From: Chitinophaga agri
GTDB taxonomy: Bacteria; Bacteroidota; Bacteroidia; Chitinophagales; Chitinophagaceae
Assembly (NCBI RefSeq): GCF_010093065.1
Contig: NZ_CP048113.1
Span: 7,892,001-7,956,000 of the forward strand
DNA: 64,000 nt
Direction of reading: 5' to 3'
Positions 4,979-16,020 of this stretch are shown in pieces; within the stretch, counting starts at the first letter, position 1; every line of letters starts with the position of its first letter. Below the pieces are notes generated by a model, which saw only the letters and a program-made list of their open reading frames with translations, did not search any database and was not told the origin of the DNA. Made by a program: the position numbers and the translations under genes.

Positions 4979-6697
4979 TTATTTCTCGATTAAAAAAGAG
5001 CTGATTACAAGTGCATCAAACGGTGATGACCAGAAACATTCTACTGCATCACGGGGTGTGCAGACGATGGGTTTACCGAGTGTATTGAATGAGGTGTTGA
5101 TCAGTACAGGTACTCCAGTTTTTTTATAGAATGCCTGTAGCAGATCATAGTAACGGCTGTGCTGATCACGGTTGATCGTCTGGATACGTGCTGTACCATC
5201 TACATGGGTGACCGCAGGTATTTTATCTTTTTTATCCTCTTTTACATTATATACAAACAACATGAAGGGCGAGAACTGTGCATCTTCGAACCATTCACCG
5301 GCAGCTTCTTCGAGTACAACAGGAGCCACCGGACGGAAGTCTTCGCGGTCTTTTACCTCGTTCAGTCTGGCCTGCATATTTGCAGAGATAGGAGATGCCA
5401 GTATAGAACGGCTGCCTAATGCCCGCGGACCAAACTCCATGCGTCCCTGGTACCACCCGATGATCTTATCCTCGGCTAACAGCGCAGCAGTTTCTTCAGC
5501 TACGTTGTCCAGTTTCTTATAAGGTGTTTTGGTCCAGTCGAGAAATGCTTTTATCTCTTCATCGCCATATTCCGGTCCCCAGTAAGCGTGGTCCATCCGG
5601 AAAGTTTTTTCCTGGCTACCTCTTTCTTTTGCGTCCGTCCACATAGCCGCACCCAGCGCGGTTCCTGCATCTCCGGAAGCAGGTTGCACCCAGATGTTCC
5701 TGAAGATACCGGCATCTCTGATCTTCGCGTTCAGCACACAGTTCAATGCTACTCCGCCGGCAAAGCAAAGGTTTTCGGCATGTGTTTCTTTATAAAGCCA
5801 GTCAGCCAGTTGCAATACTGATTCCTGCAATACTGCCTGTAAAGAATGTGCAATGTTGAAGTGATGGGCTGTGAAATCATCACCTTTCTTCCTTGCTGGC
5901 CCCAGCATTTCTACCATCAGCGCATCATCAATGGCATACTGCCCATTGTCCAGCATGCTGATCATGGAGCGGAACGCATTTACAAACACCGGTTTTCCGT
6001 AGGAAGCCAGTGCCATCACTTTATACTCATCGGAAGAGTGCAGGAAACCAAGGTGTGTAGTGATTTTCTCATACAATAATCCGAGAGAATGTGGCATGTT
6101 GACCTGACTGATACGTTGCAGGTCATTGTCTTTACCCATACTGAAGGTAGTGGTAGCCTTTTCCCCGCGACCATCTATCGTAAGCACCGCTGCCTCGTGA
6201 TAGGGAGAGGGGAGGAACGCACTGGCAGCATGACAAAGGTGATGCTCTACGAAATGCCACTGGTCGTTCTCAAACCTGGCACCACGGAACCGTTGCTGTA
6301 AATGATGCGGATAGCCATCTACCAGTTGCCCGGGTGCGTTAATAATAGCTGAGAGAAATAACGGATCCCAGGGGGATACCCATTTCTCCGGAACAAATTG
6401 CGAAGGCTGTCTCAATGGAATATCTATCAGGCTTTTCTCCGCGTCCTCTTTCGGTAGGAGGATGAACGGATCGAAAGAATAGGAAATGTGGTCCACATCA
6501 CTAAGATGAATATTGGCAGTTTTCAGACAATAATCTATCGCATGATAGGGCAGTTCGTAAGCAGAGAACGGAATAGGCCGTTTACCATGTTTGATGTGCG
6601 TGAAACGTTCATCTTCTGCGGCAGCAATGAGCTGACCATCTTTTACGAGACACGCGGCAGAATCATGAAAAGCGGCGTTGATTCCAAGTGTATACAT
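4979..6697 (-). CDS. Carbamoyltransferase (NodU/CmcH family)
   Basis: Predicted O-carbamoyltransferase that moves a carbamoyl group from carbamoyl phosphate to a sugar or natural-product hydroxyl. The ATG at 6697 gives MYTLGINAAFHDSAACLV, the standard family N-terminus; the open frame extends six codons further. The large N-terminal Kae1-like domain has the metal-binding HHLCHAASAF and TIDGRGE; the C-terminal domain has YQGRMEFGPRALGSRSILA, FRPVAPVV and the closing NTSFN. About 572 residues is the usual size. As first gene before a GT2 and a GT9, and beside ADP-heptose genes, it plausibly carbamoylates a core or surface sugar (compare WapO on Pseudomonas LPS heptose, established knowledge). 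Confidence 0.92.
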   Translation of the reverse strand: MYTLGINAAFHDSAACLVKDGQLIAAAEDERFTHIKHGKRPIPFSAYELPYHAIDYCLKTANIHLSDVDHISYSFDPFILLPKEDAEKSLIDIPLRQPSQFVPEKWVSPWDPLFLSAIINAPGQLVDGYPHHLQQRFRGARFENDQWHFVEHHLCHAASAFLPSPYHEAAVLTIDGRGEKATTTFSMGKDNDLQRISQVNMPHSLGLLYEKITTHLGFLHSSDEYKVMALASYGKPVFVNAFRSMISMLDNGQYAIDDALMVEMLGPARKKGDDFTAHHFNIAHSLQAVLQESVLQLADWLYKETHAENLCFAGGVALNCVLNAKIRDAGIFRNIWVQPASGDAGTALGAAMWTDAKERGSQEKTFRMDHAYWGPEYGDEEIKAFLDWTKTPYKKLDNVAEETAALLAEDKIIGWYQGRMEFGPRALGSRSILASPISANMQARLNEVKDREDFRPVAPVVLEEAAGEWFEDAQFSPFMLFVYNVKEDKKDKIPAVTHVDGTARIQTINRDQHSRYYDLLQAFYKKTGVPVLINTSFNTLGKPIVCTPRDAVECFWSSPFDALVISSFLIEK

Positions 6698-6748
6698 GTT
6701 GAATGGTTTTATCAATAAGAATGGGTTAATATGTAGCGGTCAGTAATA

Positions 6749-8512: not shown

Positions 8513-9637
8513 ATGCCGGTAAATGATGTTATCATTGTGGGAGGCGGACTGGCCGGATTAACCAGTGCCCTGCACCTGTTACGTGCAGGGTTGTGCGTTA
8601 CGGTAATTGAAAGGAACGCTTACCCGAAACATAAGGTCTGCGGAGAGTATATCTCCAATGAAGTGTTGCCTTACCTCCGGTGGTTAGGAGCGGATCCGGC
8701 TGTGCTGCGACCGGCAAGGATCGAACGGGTTTGCCTGTCGACCGTTTCCGGTAAAAGTATAGCAGCCACCCTGCCGCTGGGAGGCTTCGGCATCAGTCGT
8801 TATGCCCTGGACCATTTCCTGATGCAGCGCGTGCTGCAGGAAGGGGGGACTATCCTGGAAGATTCCGTAGATGATATCGTGTTCACACAGGACCATTTCC
8901 TGGTCAGTACCACCGGGGGAACATCGCTGAAGGCGCGTTTTGTGATAGGCGCCTATGGGAAAAGAGCAGCACTCGACCAGCGGATGGACCGTGACTTCTC
9001 AGCACAGAAGTCCCCCTGGCTGGCTGTTAAATGCCATTATAAGGGCGATTTTCCGGATGGACTGGTAGCACTCCACAATTTCAGGGGTGGGTATTGTGGG
9101 GTATCCAAAGTGGAGAATAATATCATCAACGTTTGCTACCTGGCCAGTTATGATACCTTTAAGAAATACAGGAACATTGAGGCGCACCGGGAGGGAGTAT
9201 TATATGAAAATCCGCATCTGAAAACCATATTTGAACATAGCAGTCCGCTTTTTGAGCGTCCGCTCAGTATCAGCCAGGTGTCATTTGCAGAGAAGCGGAA
9301 GGTAGACCGGCATATACTCATGACAGGGGATACCGCTGGCCTGATCCATCCGCTGTGTGGGAATGGCATGGCCATGGCCATCCATAGTGCCAAGATCGCT
9401 TCGGAACAATTATTGTCTTTTATGGCGGGGGATGTTTCTTCACGGGGAGAGCTGGAAAGGAAGTATATAAACGCATGGAATGGAGCGTTTGGCAAGCGAA
9501 TGGCAGCAGGAAAGCTGTTGTCAGCTGTCTTTCGGAAACCGCAGCTGGCGGCAGGTGCTATGAAAGGATTGGTATTGTTACCGAAGTTGTTACCGGTTAT
9601 TATCCGCCAAACGCACGGAAAACCTTTAAATAATTAG
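8513..9637 (+). CDS. FAD-dependent oxidoreductase of the type III PKS operon
   Basis: Flavoprotein of 374 residues in the geranylgeranyl-reductase / PHBH-like monooxygenase group. Starts VNDVIIVGGGLAGLTSALHLL (FAD Rossmann GxGxxG), then KHKVCGEYISNEVLP typical of the lipid-acting branch, and near residue 270 MTGDTAGLIHPLCGNGMAMA, the FAD-ribose GD motif. In the operon with a type III PKS and a methyltransferase it most likely hydroxylates or oxidises the aromatic product to a quinone, as SrsC does for alkylresorcinols in Streptomyces (established knowledge; equivalence here is inference). It is the first gene, with seven bp to the methyltransferase. Confidence 0.88.
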   Translation: MPVNDVIIVGGGLAGLTSALHLLRAGLCVTVIERNAYPKHKVCGEYISNEVLPYLRWLGADPAVLRPARIERVCLSTVSGKSIAATLPLGGFGISRYALDHFLMQRVLQEGGTILEDSVDDIVFTQDHFLVSTTGGTSLKARFVIGAYGKRAALDQRMDRDFSAQKSPWLAVKCHYKGDFPDGLVALHNFRGGYCGVSKVENNIINVCYLASYDTFKKYRNIEAHREGVLYENPHLKTIFEHSSPLFERPLSISQVSFAEKRKVDRHILMTGDTAGLIHPLCGNGMAMAIHSAKIASEQLLSFMAGDVSSRGELERKYINAWNGAFGKRMAAGKLLSAVFRKPQLAAGAMKGLVLLPKLLPVIIRQTHGKPLNN

Positions 9638-9643
9638 TCACAC

Positions 9644-10357
9644 ATGTTTGTCAATACGCAGCAGCGTACGCTTGCTCCTGAAATGATGGATGACTTCCAG
9701 ATGGAAGGAGATGATCTGCGCAGTACATTGGACGAGATCGCTTATATTAACAGATTGCTGGGAGGAAACAATATTACCCTGAAAGGTGTTTCTTCGCTGA
9801 TGGAGCATGTTGCAAAGGGTAAACAGGTCACTATCGCTGACATTGGGTGTGGCAACGGGGATATGCTTCGTGCGCTGGCCAAACTGGCGAGGAAGTCTAA
9901 ATGGCAGGTTAGACTGCTGGGGATAGACGCTAATCAGTTTACGGTGGATTATGCCTCGACATGCTCAGCAGAATATCCGGAAATCAGTTACTATTGCATG
10001 GATATTATGCAGGACCGCTTCAGAAGTCTTCAATACGATATCGCATTATGTACACTGACGCTGCATCATTTTGAAGAGAAGCAGATCCTGAAACTGATGT
10101 CTCTCTTCCGGAGGAATGCAGCGCTGGGAATAGTGATCAATGACCTGCAACGTAGTGCGGTGGCTTACCGTTTATTTCAGGTATTCAGCTGGATCGCGGG
10201 TTTGGGTAAGATGGCCAGGGTCGATGGCCTCACATCGATACTCAGGGGATTTAAAAAAAATGAGATCAAACAATTATCTGAAAAACTCAATTTCAATCAA
10301 TATACACTCAAATGGAAATGGGCTTTCCGTTATCAGTGGATAATCACAAATGTATGA
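9644..10357 (+). CDS. SAM-dependent methyltransferase of the type III PKS operon
   Basis: Class I methyltransferase, 237 residues. Motif I is VTIADIGCGNGDMLRALAKL, followed by LLGIDANQFTVDYA (acidic ribose-binding loop) and ALCTLTLHHFEE (motif post-I/II). The last bases overlap the PKS start as ATGA, implying translational coupling. By position it methylates an oxygen or carbon of the polyketide product, in the role SrsB plays in Streptomyces; the acceptor atom cannot be predicted from sequence. No membrane segment is obvious. Confidence 0.85.
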   Translation: MFVNTQQRTLAPEMMDDFQMEGDDLRSTLDEIAYINRLLGGNNITLKGVSSLMEHVAKGKQVTIADIGCGNGDMLRALAKLARKSKWQVRLLGIDANQFTVDYASTCSAEYPEISYYCMDIMQDRFRSLQYDIALCTLTLHHFEEKQILKLMSLFRRNAALGIVINDLQRSAVAYRLFQVFSWIAGLGKMARVDGLTSILRGFKKNEIKQLSEKLNFNQYTLKWKWAFRYQWIITNV

Positions 10358-11406
10358 GCGTTAAAATAACAGCAGTATCGAAAGCCTTACCACCTTATAC
10401 CAGAAGTACAGAAGAGATCATGCCTTTTCTTGATGTCTGGTTGTCCGGACAGGAAGACCGCTTTGCCAGGAAAGTCAGGAAGATCTTTGAAAATGCTGCA
10501 GTTGAACGGCGCTATTCTATTATGAGCCCAGAAGAAGTATTTACCAGTACTTCTTTCGAAGAAAAGAACGATATCTACATGAGAGAGGTGATCAAACTGG
10601 GTAGGACCTGTCTCGAAGATGCCCTGCATAAAGCAGGACTGGAGCCGCAGGACCTGGACTACATCATCACCGTCAGCTGTACGGGTATCATGATCCCTTC
10701 GCTGGATGCCTACCTGATCAATCTGTTACAGCTTCGCCAGGATATCGTACGTTTACCTGTTACAGAAATGGGCTGTGCGGCTGGTATTTCCGGGATGATC
10801 TATGCAAAGAAGTTCCTGGAGGCGAACCCGGGCAAGAGGGCCGCTGTTATTGCGGTGGAATCACCGACAGCCACTTTTCAGCTGGAAGACTATTCGATGC
10901 CGAATATTGTAAGCGCTGCTATCTTCGGTGATGGTGCTGCCTGTGTGCTCCTCTCATCCCATGAAGAAGATGCTGGTCCACAGATACTGGGAGAAGAGAT
11001 GTATCATTTCTTTGATGCAGAACATATGATGGGCTTCCGGCTTACAAATACAGGCTTACAAATGATCCTGGATGTCGAAGTACCCGAAAGGATCGCTACT
11101 CACTTCCCTGCCATCGTCCATCCTTTCCTGGATAGACACGGCTGCCGGATAGACGATGTAGACCACCTGATCTTCCATCCCGGAGGGAAAAAGATCATTC
11201 AGACGGTAGAGCAGCTGTTTGGTGATATGGGAAAGAACATAGACGACACAAAAGAAGTCTTACGGTTATATGGAAATATGTCCAGCGCTACCGTCCTTTA
11301 TGTACTGGAGCGTTTTATGGACAGAGAGATCCCGGCAGGCAGTAAAGGCCTGATGCTGAGCTTCGGTCCGGGTTTCTCTGCACAGCGAATATTGTTACAA
11401 TGGTAA
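10354..11406 (+). CDS. Type III polyketide synthase
   Basis: Chalcone/stilbene-synthase-like homodimeric ketosynthase, 350 residues from the ATG at 10354. The open frame reaches 10312, but that extra sequence lies within the methyltransferase gene. The catalytic triad is visible: Cys in TEMGCAAGISG, His in LIFHPGGKKI, Asn in YGNMSSATVLYVL; the C-terminus has the SFGPGFSAQ loop. It extends an acyl starter with malonyl-CoA to an alkylresorcinol or alkylpyrone. The fatty-acid genes downstream imply a long acyl chain handed over from the dedicated carrier protein rather than a plant-like aromatic CoA. It overlaps the enoyl reductase gene by 7 bp. Confidence 0.93.
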   Translation: MSVKITAVSKALPPYTRSTEEIMPFLDVWLSGQEDRFARKVRKIFENAAVERRYSIMSPEEVFTSTSFEEKNDIYMREVIKLGRTCLEDALHKAGLEPQDLDYIITVSCTGIMIPSLDAYLINLLQLRQDIVRLPVTEMGCAAGISGMIYAKKFLEANPGKRAAVIAVESPTATFQLEDYSMPNIVSAAIFGDGAACVLLSSHEEDAGPQILGEEMYHFFDAEHMMGFRLTNTGLQMILDVEVPERIATHFPAIVHPFLDRHGCRIDDVDHLIFHPGGKKIIQTVEQLFGDMGKNIDDTKEVLRLYGNMSSATVLYVLERFMDREIPAGSKGLMLSFGPGFSAQRILLQW

Positions 11407-12200
11407 AAGAGTTTCTTGCACATCACTACTGGGCTTTAATCCTGGGCGGCAGTAACGGTCTCGGACTGGCTACCGCCCGCAAACTTGCGTCACATGGCAT
11501 GAATATCTGCGTCGTACACCGCGATCCGCGTATTGAAATGGACCGTATCAACAGTGATTTTGATACCCTGCGGGCAGTATCAGGAGTGCAGGTGCTGACG
11601 ATGAATGCGGATGCCCTGCAGGCCGAAAAGCGCCAGGAGATCGTGACCGCTTTACAGGCAGCGATGGGAGTGGAAGGAAAGGTGCGCACACTGGTGCATA
11701 GCATCGCTAAAGGAAACCTCAAGGCGATGCATACATCGGAAGGACCGGTACTGAACAACGATGACTTCCGGATCACGCTGGACAGTATGGCCGTCAGTCT
11801 GTATGACTGGACGCAGGCACTGGTACAACGGCAGCTGTTTGCTGCTGACGCCCGCGTACTCTCTTTTACCAGTGAAGGCAGCACCCGTGCCTGGGCGCAT
11901 TATGGAGCGGTTGCCGCGGCTAAAGCTGCATTAGAAGCGATCACCCGGAATATGGCCCTGGAATTTGCCCCGCTCGGACTACGTGCGAACTGTATTCAGG
12001 CCGGCGTGACGGATACACGCTCGTTACAGGCTATTCCCGGCAGTGCAGACCTCATTACTTATACCAAACAACGTAATCCTTTTCACCGGCTGACAACCCC
12101 CGAAGATGTAGCCAATGCCGTATATCTGTTGTGCAAAGATGAAGCAGCCTGGATCAATGGAGCGGTGATTCCGGTGAATGGAGGTGAACATATCAGCTGA
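11400..12200 (+). CDS. Enoyl-ACP reductase-like SDR (FabI/FabL type)
   Basis: Short-chain dehydrogenase fold of 266 residues. The dinucleotide loop is ILGGSNGLGLATA. The catalytic stretch AHYGAVAAAKAALE has Tyr and Lys separated by six residues, the spacing of FabI/FabL enoyl reductases, not the YxxxK of ketoreductases; no Tyr occupies the ketoreductase position. PVNGGEHIS closes the protein like other ENRs (VDGG). It would saturate the enoyl-ACP intermediates of the starter chain. It is sandwiched between the type III PKS (7-bp overlap) and the dehydratase (3-bp gap). Confidence 0.85.
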   Translation: MVKEFLAHHYWALILGGSNGLGLATARKLASHGMNICVVHRDPRIEMDRINSDFDTLRAVSGVQVLTMNADALQAEKRQEIVTALQAAMGVEGKVRTLVHSIAKGNLKAMHTSEGPVLNNDDFRITLDSMAVSLYDWTQALVQRQLFAADARVLSFTSEGSTRAWAHYGAVAAAKAALEAITRNMALEFAPLGLRANCIQAGVTDTRSLQAIPGSADLITYTKQRNPFHRLTTPEDVANAVYLLCKDEAAWINGAVIPVNGGEHIS

Positions 12201-12203
12201 TAT

Positions 12204-12650
12204 ATGACGATACAAGCAATTCTTGAAAAGCTTCCCTACACCCCGCCTTTTCTATTTGTAGATGGACTGGATCATATAGATCGTGATAGCGTAACAGGGC
12301 ATTATACTTTCAGGCAAGACCTGGATTTCTATAAAGGGCATTTCATCGGCTATCCGGTAACACCGGGAGTCATACTTACGGAAGTAGCCGCCCAGATCGG
12401 ATTGGTTTGCCTGGGTATTTACCTGACAGCAGACGAGCAACTACCCGGGCAGATGACCTTCGGTCTGACGTCTACAGAAATGGAGTTCCTGCGTCCTGTT
12501 TTTCCGGGAGAGAAGGTGACGGTATATGCCGAAAAAGTATATTTCCGTTTTGGTAAACTCAAATGCGGGGTGAGTATGAAAAATGAATCAGGTGAAGAAG
12601 TATCTGGTGGCGTTATTGCCGGAATGATCATTACGAAACCACATGAATAA
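12204..12650 (+). CDS. 3-hydroxyacyl-ACP dehydratase (FabZ/FabA-like hotdog)
   Basis: Single-hotdog dehydratase of 148 residues. FYKGHFIGYPVTPGVILTEVAAQ carries the active-site His of GHF and the Glu of the central helix in the FabZ arrangement; the N-terminus LPYTPPFLFVDGLDHID matches the family substrate loop (usually PFLLVD). It removes water from 3-hydroxyacyl-ACP in the chain-building cycle supplying the type III PKS. Its end overlaps the ketosynthase start by 8 bp. Confidence 0.9.
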   Translation: MTIQAILEKLPYTPPFLFVDGLDHIDRDSVTGHYTFRQDLDFYKGHFIGYPVTPGVILTEVAAQIGLVCLGIYLTADEQLPGQMTFGLTSTEMEFLRPVFPGEKVTVYAEKVYFRFGKLKCGVSMKNESGEEVSGGVIAGMIITKPHE

Positions 12651-13914
12651 AAGAGTTGTTGTGACAGGCCTGGGAGTTGCTGCTCCCAACGGCGTTGGTA
12701 TCCCTGCTTTTACAGCGGCGATCAAAGCCGGCACTTCCGGTGTCCGGCATGATGCAGAACTGGCCGCCTTACAGTTTTCCTGTCAGATAGCCGGAAAACC
12801 TGAAGTGCCGGAAAGCGTACAATTACAGTACCTTGATGCACTGGAATTACGCAGCTTCAATAGCAATGGTATTCTCTACGGACTCATTGCCGGAATAGAT
12901 GCCTGGAAAGATGCGCAGTTGCCCGTCGGGGCAGAAGTACCGCCTGACTGGGACAGTGGTACGATCTTCGGTGCTGGATCAGCTGGCGTAGATAAACTGC
13001 GCGAAGCGATCTATAAAGTGGATGCGTTAAATGTACGCCGGCTGGGCAGTACCGTGGTGCCACAGACCATGGCCAGCGGCATCAGTGCATGGCTGGGCGG
13101 AAAGCTGGCACTGGCCAATCAGGTGACCACCAATTCATCCGCCTGCACCACCGGCGCTGAAAGTGTGCTGATGGCCTATGACCGTATCCGTAATGGCTAT
13201 GCGAAGCGTATGCTGGCAGGTAGCACCAGTGATGCCGGGCCTTATATATGGGGTGGTTTTGACGGACTTAAAGTATGCACGTTCAAGCATAACGACAATC
13301 CGGAAGCCGGTTCCAGACCAATGAGCGCCTCCGCAAGCGGATTTGTACCAGGTAGTGGGGCCGGCGCACTGGTGCTGGAATCACTGGATAGCGCATTAGA
13401 CAGAGGAGCCACCATTTATGCAGAAGTACTGGGTGGACATGTCAATGCCGGTGCACAAAGGGGAGACGGTTCAATGACCGCCCCGAATAGTATCGCCGTA
13501 CAGCGATGTATCCGCGAAGCGGTAAAAGCGGCAGGCATAGACGCTGCAGATATAGATGCTATTAATGGCCACCTGACCGCTACGGGCAAGGATGCACTGG
13601 AAGTAGAGAACTGGAGTATCGCGCTGGACAGAAGAGGAAGCGACTTTCCTTATCTGAATGCGCTGAAGGGAATGATAGGGCACTGTCTGAGTGGTTCGGG
13701 CAGTATTGAGCTGGTGGCCGCAGTATTACAGTTACACGAAGGCTTTTTGTTCCCCAATATCAATTGTGAAGATCTGCATCCTGAGATCGCCGCGATAGTA
13801 GCTCCCGAAAAAATACCACAGCAATTGATATATAAAGATTTAAATTTGATCGCCAAGGCGAGCTTTGGCTTTGGTGACGTGAATGCCTGCGTGATTTTAA
13901 AGAAGTATAAATAA
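12643..13914 (+). CDS. Beta-ketoacyl-ACP synthase (FabF/KAS II-like)
   Basis: Condensing enzyme of 423 residues with the thiolase fold. Active-site Cys lies in TNSSACTTGAES; the first His in INGHLTATGKDALEVENW (GHLT instead of the usual AHGT); Lys and second His in ALKGMIGHCLSGSGSIE; the closing FGFGDVNACVIL replaces the common FGFGGxN. It elongates the acyl chain on the operon's own carrier protein. The altered first-His motif suggests a specialised rather than housekeeping KAS. A five-base gap separates it from the ACP gene. Confidence 0.9.
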   Translation: MNKRVVVTGLGVAAPNGVGIPAFTAAIKAGTSGVRHDAELAALQFSCQIAGKPEVPESVQLQYLDALELRSFNSNGILYGLIAGIDAWKDAQLPVGAEVPPDWDSGTIFGAGSAGVDKLREAIYKVDALNVRRLGSTVVPQTMASGISAWLGGKLALANQVTTNSSACTTGAESVLMAYDRIRNGYAKRMLAGSTSDAGPYIWGGFDGLKVCTFKHNDNPEAGSRPMSASASGFVPGSGAGALVLESLDSALDRGATIYAEVLGGHVNAGAQRGDGSMTAPNSIAVQRCIREAVKAAGIDAADIDAINGHLTATGKDALEVENWSIALDRRGSDFPYLNALKGMIGHCLSGSGSIELVAAVLQLHEGFLFPNINCEDLHPEIAAIVAPEKIPQQLIYKDLNLIAKASFGFGDVNACVILKKYK

Positions 13915-13919
13915 AAAAG

Positions 13920-14174
13920 ATGGATAGAGAAACGCTGATCGCACAATTAAAAGAGATCGTTAAGCCATATGCGAAGGACCAGGAAGCCTTACAACAGATC
14001 AATGAAAACACCGACTTTGTAAAGGACCTCAAGATCAACTCTGCCAACCTGGTAGATGTGATACTGGACGTAGAAGAACAGTTCAACATCGTGATAGATA
14101 ATGAGGCAATGGAACACATGCTGAATGTAAAATCGGCTATAGAGATCATTGAAGCCAAATTAGGGGGACAATGA
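13920..14174 (+). CDS. Acyl carrier protein
   Basis: Small acidic four-helix carrier of 84 residues. The phosphopantetheine Ser is most likely Ser41 in DLKINSANLVDVILDVEEQF; the usual DSL is replaced by NSA, but the surrounding helix II pattern (LVDVILDVEEQFNIVI) is standard. It holds the growing fatty chain for the adjacent KAS, dehydratase and enoyl reductase, and overlaps by 4 bp the gene for the enzyme that would activate it. Confidence 0.9.
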   Translation: MDRETLIAQLKEIVKPYAKDQEALQQINENTDFVKDLKINSANLVDVILDVEEQFNIVIDNEAMEHMLNVKSAIEIIEAKLGGQ

Positions 14175-14707
14175 TCGGTAACGATATCATAGACCTGCGT
14201 CTTGCCCGAAAGGAAAGTAACTGGCAGAGGAAAGGATATCTGGGCAAGATCTTTACAGCTGCAGAGCAGGAGATGATCTGTCAGGCAGCTGAGCCGTCGG
14301 ATATGGTCTGGCTGCTCTGGAGCTGTAAGGAAGCCGCCTATAAGATCGTGAATCGTATTACGAATGTAAGAGCATATAATCCCATTAAATTTGACTGCTC
14401 TCTGTTATACCAGCATTCAACAGCTATCACCGGAAAAATAGCGCATGCCTCAAGAACCTATGCATTTGTCAGTCAACGGGAAGGGCATTGTATTCATACT
14501 GTTGCTGTCGCACATGAGATCTTTTTTGACAGTCTAGATATCTATACAGGTAACAGCTGGCCATTACATTTACCTGACCAGTGTATACTGATGAAAAACC
14601 AGGATGGCATTCCCTATATAAACTGTTGCAGCAATACCCCACTTCCTGTGTCCATCAGCCACCACGGAGATTATTATGGTATGGTAAAAAAGAAGGCACT
14701 TATATAA
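14171..14707 (+). CDS. 4'-phosphopantetheinyl transferase
   Basis: Transfers phosphopantetheine from CoA to the Ser of the carrier protein. At 178 residues it is in the Sfp/AcpS superfamily: IGNDIIDLRLA (the GxDxxD-like magnesium motif, here GNDIID) and WLLWSCKEAAYKIVNR (the W-KEAxxK motif) are clear. Coupling by ATGA overlap to the ACP gene implies a dedicated pair, fitting the non-standard NSA serine motif. Last gene of the PKS operon. Confidence 0.88.
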   Translation: MIGNDIIDLRLARKESNWQRKGYLGKIFTAAEQEMICQAAEPSDMVWLLWSCKEAAYKIVNRITNVRAYNPIKFDCSLLYQHSTAITGKIAHASRTYAFVSQREGHCIHTVAVAHEIFFDSLDIYTGNSWPLHLPDQCILMKNQDGIPYINCCSNTPLPVSISHHGDYYGMVKKKALI

Positions 14708-15039: not shown

Positions 15040-16020
15040 ATGGCACAGATCACTTATCATGCATCTCACGAACAACATGCCCCTTCCGCATTGCTTCAAT
15101 TTGCAATAGCGGCTGAGCAGGCTGGCTTTCAGGCCGTTCATTGTTCCGACCACTTTCATCCATGGAGTGAACGTCAGGGACAGAGCGGCTTTTCCTTTTC
15201 CTGGATCGCAGCTGCTATGCAGGCGACAAAATTACCTTTCAGTATGGTATGTGCACCCGGACAACGATACCATCCTGCTATCGTTGCGCAGGCTATTGCT
15301 ACACTTGCGGAAATGTTTCCGGGGAGGTATGCTGTTGAACTGGGTAGTGGCGAGGCGCTTAACGAATCGATCACAGGAGACGTCTGGCCACATAAAGAGG
15401 AAAGGAATGCGCGATTGCTGGAATGTGCGCAGGTGATAAGGTCTCTTTTGAATGGAGAGCTGGTGACGCATAATGGTCTTATCTGCGTCAAAGAAGCAAA
15501 GTTATACACGCTTCCTGCCGTATCACCTCCGTTAATGGTAGCAGCACTTTCTGAGCGGACAGCAGCCTGGGCCGGCGCCTGGGCTGATGGACTGATCACA
15601 GTAGATAAAGAGAAGGAGGAACTGAAAAAGGTGGTAGCCGCATTCCGCGATAACGGTGGCGCTGGTAAACCCGTATTTGTACAGGTGGCGTTCTCTTATG
15701 CGGCTTCAGAACAGGAAGCGCTGGAAGCTGCATACGACCAGTGGCGAACGAATTTCTTCGCGCCTGAGGTATTGAATGATCTGTCCCGTCCCACACAGTT
15801 TGATGCGATCGCGGACTATGTCACGCGGGAAGAATTGCAGCAGAAAATGCTTATCACGGCCAGCCCTGAACAATGCATCAGAAAAATACAGGATTGCATT
15901 GACCTGGGATTTGACAGGGTGATACTCCACAATGTACACAGGGACCAGGAAATGTTTATCCGCGATTTTCAGGACAAAATACTGCCCCATATCCGATCAT
16001 CCAAAAATGTACAGTTATGA
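15040..16020 (+). CDS. LLM-class flavin-dependent oxidoreductase (TIGR03885-like)
   Basis: Luciferase-like TIM-barrel oxidoreductase, 326 residues. ITYHASHEQHAPSALL, HCSDHFHPWSERQGQSGFSFSWIAAAMQAT, FPGRYAVELGSGEALNE and ADGLITV are the signatures of the G6PDH-related group predicted to use FMN rather than F420. The substrate is unknown. Its stop overlaps the next gene as ATGA, so they are translated together. Confidence 0.85.
   Translation: MAQITYHASHEQHAPSALLQFAIAAEQAGFQAVHCSDHFHPWSERQGQSGFSFSWIAAAMQATKLPFSMVCAPGQRYHPAIVAQAIATLAEMFPGRYAVELGSGEALNESITGDVWPHKEERNARLLECAQVIRSLLNGELVTHNGLICVKEAKLYTLPAVSPPLMVAALSERTAAWAGAWADGLITVDKEKEELKKVVAAFRDNGGAGKPVFVQVAFSYAASEQEALEAAYDQWRTNFFAPEVLNDLSRPTQFDAIADYVTREELQQKMLITASPEQCIRKIQDCIDLGFDRVILHNVHRDQEMFIRDFQDKILPHIRSSKNVQL

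Follow-up and report, generated by a model that had tools for sequence, protein, structure and literature searches.

Operons that join a type III polyketide synthase (PKS) to an oxidoreductase and a methyltransferase (MT) are known from the hierridin systems, with the published gene orders MT-oxidoreductase-PKS or PKS-MT-oxidoreductase (PMC8086630), and from Planctomycetota, where 58 of 96 type III PKS genes share an operon with oxidoreductase and MT genes (PMC10896814). Planctomycete proteins are 48-55% identical to HidA, HidB and HidC, all three, and heterologous expression of such planctomycetal PKS genes gave alkylresorcinols, the fully decorated product not being obtained (PMC10896814). 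Type III PKSs that draw on carrier-bound chains have been described as well: ArsB and ArsC take their chains directly from the acyl carrier protein (ACP) of the ArsA fatty-acid synthase (FAS), Gcs and SCO7671 accept hexanoyl-ACP (PMC6274091), and CylI of the cylindrocyclophane pathway is handed its chain by type I PKSs (PMC8086630). The subject of this report is an operon at positions 8513-14707 of a 64,000-nucleotide stretch of the Chitinophaga agri genome (contig NZ_CP048113.1, positions 7,892,001 to 7,956,000), the whole of which we call the window. We consider it probable that this operon encodes a resorcinol-lipid pathway of the hierridin type, coupled to a type II acyl-ACP maker of its own, a reading built on gene content, intact catalytic residues, the co-retention of two gene units and a ketosynthase distinct from the others of the genome.

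The operon consists of eight tightly packed open reading frames (ORFs), all on the + strand (Table 1), and Pfam and NCBIfam agree on the families that an earlier reading of the same DNA, the original prediction, had assigned to them. That prediction had also given the genes overlaps of 4-8 bp, which is correct for four of the seven junctions (MT/PKS, 4 bp; PKS/reductase, 7 bp; dehydratase/ketosynthase, 8 bp; ACP/phosphopantetheinyl transferase, 4 bp); at the remaining three the genes are 6, 3 and 5 bp apart. Two units can be told apart, namely a trio of flavin adenine dinucleotide (FAD)-dependent oxidoreductase (hereafter the flavoprotein), MT and PKS, followed by a discrete type II fatty-acid cassette of a short-chain dehydrogenase/reductase (SDR), a dehydratase (DH), a beta-ketoacyl-ACP synthase (KAS), an ACP and a 4'-phosphopantetheinyl transferase (PPTase). 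Each fatty-acid activity of the operon has an ORF to itself (84-423 aa). The operon has no acyltransferase gene, and its sole evident acyl consumer is the type III PKS. PADLOC returned matches to generic parts only.

A PKS scan of genome contigs yielded 60 loci at 69-92% identity, the gene content of which was determined by tblastn (E <= 1e-4). All eight genes were present in 32 of these loci; the reductase alone was missing in 15, a detectable PPTase alone in 3 and the flavoprotein alone in 2, while six loci were interrupted by contig ends, one (L060) was without reductase, dehydratase and PPTase, and one (L047) held the trio only. The MT and the PKS were found in 60/60 loci and the FAD gene in 57/60. 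Because the same genes recur in relatives, the operon is not a chance assembly, and its host families include Flavobacteriaceae, Weeksellaceae, Sphingobacteriaceae, Spirosomataceae, Saprospiraceae and Lewinellaceae. As a side observation, a Ferruginibacter locus (L036) carries two methyltransferases in tandem.

We also searched an even sample of 395 genomes from the phylum, with the PKS at E <= 0.001 and with the KAS at E <= 1e-90. Some PKS-type match was retrieved from 369 genomes, an orthologue at 67% identity or more (67-100%) from 33 only, and the next best PKS identity listed below these 33 was 38%. The KAS search retrieved 38 genomes, i.e., the 33 with the PKS orthologue (KAS identity at least 60%) and five others at 47-52%. 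The PKS and KAS orthologues thus co-occur in 33/33 genomes, on the same contig and about 3 kb apart at most. Within the genus the PKS was found in 44 of 79 genomes (E <= 1e-60), and by these genus and phylum counts the operon is patchy rather than core. The two units are retained even where they have been rearranged: in two Dyadobacter loci MT-PKS and SDR-DH-KAS-ACP-PPTase are divergent neighbours, and in Pedobacter insulae the FAD-MT-PKS trio is inside one contig and DH-KAS-ACP-PPTase lies about 45 kb inside another. That both halves are kept although divergent or apart favours function over operon inertia, and together with the PKS-KAS co-occurrence this supports the original proposal that the type III PKS is joined to an acyl supply of its own.

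Both Chal_sti_synt domains of the PKS scored above the Pfam cut-off of 27 (84.6 and 68.7 bits). Among aligned rows picked by score threshold, the window being one of them, as for all residue counts given here, the triad Cys141-His275-Asn308 was intact in 64/64 PKS rows, as the original prediction had read it. Judging from the sequence, the PKS most likely starts at ATG 10354, overlapping the MT stop, rather than at 10312, because several orthologues have an open frame of 350-352 aa only, which makes the earlier start impossible there. The nearest solved structure, both by sequence and by the fold of the predicted model (mean predicted local distance difference test score, pLDDT, 84.4), is Mycobacterium PKS11; ArsB and ArsC were absent among the 60 matches listed in each of two PDB searches. 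A phenylalanine, Phe228, present in 64/64 rows, aligns with a Trp of PKS11 and a Tyr of THNS.

The catalytic residues of the cassette are likewise intact. The reductase has Tyr168-x6-Lys175 in 43/43 rows, the spacing noted in the original prediction, and Val171 at the YxxxK position in 43/43, so that there is no Tyr-x3-Lys. Tyr-x6-Lys, not Tyr-x3-Lys, is the signature of FabI/FabL-type enoyl-ACP reductases, and its presence in an SDR fits enoyl reduction; against the NCBIfam FabL equivalog the protein reached 143.5 bits (cut-off 328), which would make it at best a divergent FabL relative. Conserved throughout are His46/Glu60 of the dehydratase (55/55 rows), Cys168-His310-His347 of the KAS (57/57), Ser41 of the ACP (48/48) and G3, D5, D8, K53, E54 and K58 of the PPTase (51/51).

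The original prediction had named a housekeeping role of these fatty-acid genes as what would overturn it. The genome, a single contig of 7,969,925 bases, encodes eight KAS-type proteins, and the seven others are 23-32% identical to the operon KAS, which forms a clade apart from them (support 98) in a tree of the window and 14 loci (15 of the 57 operon rows), several other branches of which are long, the deeper grouping being left unused. One of the seven, the FabF-like L062, adjoins an ORF that, without a family search, we take to be RNase III-like. There are two other FabA/Z-type proteins, one of them a 471-aa ORF that by its size presumably resembles an LpxC-FabZ fusion. On the basis of these identities, the further FabA/Z-type proteins and the separate KAS clade, we rejected the identity of the cassette with the housekeeping FAS. 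Neither a ketoreductase nor a malonyl transferase is among the eight operon genes, as had also been pointed out originally. The whole genome has one Acyl_transf_1 (FabD-type) protein, and one of its 61 SDR matches lies above the FabG cut-off; malonyl loading must therefore be borrowed from the cell, and ketoreduction very probably too.

Table 1. Genes of the operon in the C. agri window.
Feature	Position	Strand	Supporting match
FAD-dependent oxidoreductase, 374 aa, probable ring hydroxylase	8513..9637	+	FAD_binding_3, 49.2 bits
Class I S-adenosylmethionine (SAM) methyltransferase, 237 aa	9644..10357	+	Methyltransf_25; PRK06202-like, 133.6 bits (cut-off 243)
Type III polyketide synthase, 350 aa	10354..11406	+	Both Chal_sti_synt domains above cut-off
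Enoyl-ACP reductase-like SDR, FabL type	11400..12200	+	Best PDB sequence match FabL-type 3oic, 81.7 bits
FabZ-like dehydratase	12204..12650	+	PF07977, 40.5 bits
Beta-ketoacyl-ACP synthase, FabF-like	12643..13914	+	PF00109 and PF02801
Acyl carrier protein, 84 aa	13920..14174	+	PF00550, 22.8 bits
4'-Phosphopantetheinyl transferase, 178 aa	14171..14707	+	PF01648, 39 bits

In the pathway that we propose, the PPTase would activate the private ACP and the cell's FabD would supply malonyl-ACP. Chain building would run through the operon's KAS, a ketoreductase borrowed from the cell, and then the operon's dehydratase and enoyl reductase, to yield an acyl-ACP. The type III PKS would then take the chain from the ACP, add malonyl-CoA units and cyclise the product to an alkylresorcinol (or alkylpyrone), after which the flavoprotein would hydroxylate the ring and the MT would methylate it, giving a redox-active, methylated alkylhydroquinone-like lipid. 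We infer the ACP-to-PKS hand-off, the type of ring, its oxidation and the methylation site. For the hand-off, ArsB/ArsC, Gcs and SCO7671 provide precedent, and by analogy the window PKS may work in the same way.

Related gene sets were found outside the PKS operons. The five additional KAS genes of the phylum sample each sit within a cassette of their own (loci L084-L088). In L085, SDR-DH-KAS-ACP-PPTase is divergent from an operon with DarB, DarG and DarH (NCBIfam names) and an ABC-2 exporter, and L084 is arranged in the same way with counterparts that are 70-75% identical, no ACP having been called there by the ORF picker. Since it adjoins dar genes, this sister cassette appears to serve another resorcinol-forming ketosynthase. 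In L086-L088, dehydratase, KAS and ACP stand beside a GNAT-domain protein (weak Pfam matches) and a GT2 glycosyltransferase; only L086 has an SDR as well, and a PPTase was seen in none of the three loci. Each sister cassette thus adjoins a plausible user of acyl-ACP, and for the window operon the PKS is the only evident candidate.

A flavoprotein search of plasmids matched 34 records, of which ten were examined, eight of them annotated. On six annotated proteobacterial plasmids (Novosphingobium, Falsirhodobacter, Psychrobacter, Paracoccus, Sphingobium and Roseomonas) the FAD gene has a type III PKS and an MT next to it or no more than a few kb away, and on two annotated Bacteroidota plasmids (Bernardetia and Hymenobacter) no type III PKS or MT was found near the FAD gene. 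The two unannotated records, both Novosphingobium, contained PKS, MT, FAD, KAS and ACP genes by tblastn with the genes of the first Novosphingobium. KAS and ACP were therefore inside the PKS/MT/FAD cluster in all three Novosphingobium records examined (L101, L116 and L117; four had a match), and the same tblastn gave no KAS or ACP match in the non-Novosphingobium records submitted to it. The Novosphingobium KAS is 29% identical to the window KAS, so KAS and ACP seem to have joined the Novosphingobium trio separately. The window flavoprotein is 31-32% identical to the FAD proteins of two alphaproteobacterial clusters and 23% to that of Psychrobacter, and the MT is 27-30% identical to the MTs of three proteobacterial clusters. 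Two further records are mentioned in their own right: on the Hymenobacter plasmid (L100) the flavoprotein homologue is distant (39%) and has a TauD-type dioxygenase next to it and an isonitrile synthase nearby, and a record named as a Stenotrophomonas rhizophila plasmid (L103) carries a type III PKS and an isoprenylcysteine-carboxyl-methyltransferase (ICMT) with fosB, rsgA, a methionine-tRNA ligase and rpmG, a make-up that resembles a Bacillus chromosome and may reflect contamination.

Other readings of the gene set were considered. The housekeeping FAS might provide the starter and the private KAS make the last beta-ketoacyl-ACP only, which the PKS would extend and close in the manner of CylI. 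We think this unlikely, since the dehydratase, which such a last-step KAS would not need, is present in 54/60 loci with its His/Glu pair always intact (of the six loci without it, four are interrupted by contig ends, L047 has it on another contig and L060 does not have it). Three observations speak for the idea: CylI, in complex with a beta-ketoacyl-SNAC (N-acetylcysteamine thioester), is the fold match of rank 2 for the PKS model, the annotated Novosphingobium cluster has KAS and ACP directly beside the PKS with no dehydratase or reductase between them, and the Bacteroidota operon is without a ketoreductase. Another possibility, to which we assign a low probability, is that the product of the cassette is a second acyl group, ester- or amide-linked to the ring as in flexirubins, in which an aryl-polyene acid is joined to a dialkylresorcinol (PMC3992019), the PKS being primed separately with acyl-CoA. 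The sister cassette beside DarH, which is named as a BtrH-related acyltransferase, would agree with this, as would the three beside GNAT-domain and GT2 proteins, but the window operon has the PKS as its one evident acyl consumer and no acyltransferase, no flanking gene family is common to every host family (recurrent ones are confined to a genus or to related Flavobacteriaceae), and no acyltransferase was detected among nine recurrent flanking families tested with Pfam, one of which had no match at all.

We consider it similarly improbable that the end product is an unoxidised alkylpyrone, the flavoprotein being an ene-reductase or acting on another substrate. PKS11 as the nearest solved relative of the PKS speaks for such a product, and so does the best NCBIfam match of the flavoprotein, the geranylgeranyl reductase family TIGR02032 (GG-red-SF), albeit below cut-off (99.2 vs 158.8 bits). 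In contrast, the flavoprotein model (mean pLDDT 86.9) has flavin halogenases and related monooxygenases as its top fold matches; further down the ranking come an uncharacterised Cytophaga flavoprotein (rank 6) and 3-hydroxybenzoate 6-hydroxylase (rank 18). Of the six proteobacterial homologues found in PKS/MT clusters, five carry the annotation FAD-dependent monooxygenase and one FAD-dependent oxidoreductase. Ring hydroxylation is favoured because of the gene company of the flavoprotein.

Several observations weigh against the hierridin-type reading. The likeness to hierridin operons is one of described gene content, and the order FAD-MT-PKS differs from that of hidABC. No tested feature fixes the reaction of the flavoprotein, for which we predict ring hydroxylation with moderate confidence; a geranylgeranyl-reductase-like structure stands at rank 50 of its 50 listed fold matches, and the two Dyadobacter loci are without the gene, the best copy elsewhere in those genomes being 37% identical. 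The ring may be a pyrone, because PKS11 is named an alpha-pyrone synthase. Upstream of the operon and on its strand, 13 Flavobacteriaceae loci have an OmpA-type gene and 12 a lipocalin-like gene, and neither gene has a role in the model. Lastly, the SDR is absent in 16 of 58 rows of a PKS tree, so the reductase is not essential everywhere.

That quick tree comprised 60 rows, i.e., the window and 59 loci (L015 was left out), two of which (L047 and L048) were unlabelled; the SDR was present in 42 of the 58 labelled rows. The distribution of its absence needs 7 changes, of which the starred branches force at least 4. In the lineages without it, among them Sphingobacterium and Flavobacterium, either the cell's own enoyl reductase substitutes or the tails are polyenes, and a reductase that comes and goes may act as a switch of tail saturation. 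Among the columns of the PKS, KAS, dehydratase, ACP, flavoprotein and MT alignments none separates reductase-plus from reductase-minus operons fully, and the partial ones could be explained by ancestry alone. Position 113 of the KAS, opposite which the FabF-like L062 has an Ile, is Thr in 18/18 reductase-minus rows; the other 39 rows have Ser (18), Ile (11) or Thr (10). A broader and distinctly speculative view is that the cassette is a portable source of acyl-ACP which has been joined to three kinds of consumer or more (the type III PKS trio, the dar resorcinol cluster and the GNAT/GT2 pair), and that repeated gain or loss of the reductase in the PKS version switches the tail between saturated and polyene; some lineages would then produce colourless antioxidant lipids and others pigments. 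Lineages that naturally lack the reductase offer a ready comparison for the control of tail saturation.

In the window, the operon is flanked upstream by a divergent bestrophin gene and downstream by a small ORF and an LLM-class oxidoreductase (15040-16020, above the TIGR03885 cut-off). These three were rejected as operon parts, as they stand beside it in Chitinophaga-type loci only. Beyond the bestrophin gene, a carbamoyltransferase on the - strand (4979-6715, both Carbam_trans domains) showed no sign of operon membership. In Flavobacterium and Weeksellaceae loci an acetyl-CoA-synthetase-like gene lies upstream, and we tentatively read the recurrent Flavobacteriaceae and Weeksellaceae neighbours as local synteny. 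The lipocalin-like/OmpA-type pair (e.g., L032:6909-8110) may represent a lipid carrier or envelope link, or synteny only. Elsewhere in the genome, a locus at 6.15-6.17 Mb (L098) is probably of the flexirubin type; it contains three KAS genes, a weak match to a dehydratase and an ORF of 86 aa, the size of an ACP. A link of the operon to Chitinophaga microcysts (PMC3098273) was considered, but the occurrence of the operon in many genera lends it no particular support.

No description of the eight-gene set was found in the literature searched, from which bioRxiv preprints and most subscription papers were out of reach, and PMC6498172 and PMC9606717 had no bearing on it. The set itself is common and no isolated case. 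The hierridin-type trio with its private, discrete acyl-ACP supply is widespread and its product is predicted; if our reading is correct, it would point to a lipid class for which the searched literature gave no description and whose PKS is in more than half of the 79 genomes of the genus.

Compared with known systems, the trio at 8513-11406 resembles the hidABC operon of Cyanobium and the MT-FAD-PKS operons of Planctomycetota, which likewise keep MT, oxidoreductase and type III PKS together, and the expected product would be a hydroxylated, methylated alkylresorcinol; unlike in hidABC, five further genes, the acyl-ACP cassette, follow the trio. The original prediction had instead taken Streptomyces SrsABC as its parallel. 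That system reportedly combines a type III PKS, an MT and a flavoprotein, SrsB being of the ICMT type, and it is not known to have FAS genes. The two trios are alike in gene content, but the window MT is a Methyltransf_25/PRK06202-like class I SAM enzyme and not an ICMT, and the hierridin-type operons are the closer match. In the dar/flexirubin clusters a sister cassette stands beside DarB/G/H, with DarB as ring-former where the window has a type III PKS. Membership of the window operon in either the dar or the Srs group was rejected on the tested features, i.e., 19.6 bits for the window PKS against the NCBIfam DarB model (cut-off 550) and an MT that is not an ICMT. CylI is also a type III PKS fed by ACP-borne synthases, there with type I PKSs upstream, a free ACP and an AMP-binding enzyme (PMC8086630). 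In the ArsABCD system of Azotobacter, too, type III PKSs are charged from the ACP of a dedicated FAS that is encoded next to them (PMC6274091, PMC3098273). The Azotobacter FAS is of type I, whereas the window encodes separate proteins, misses the ketoreductase and malonyl transferase and adds an oxidase/methylase pair; if our reading is correct, the operon would be the discrete type II counterpart of the Azotobacter FAS-to-type III PKS system, and thus a set of small proteins in which chain hand-off could be studied with relative ease.

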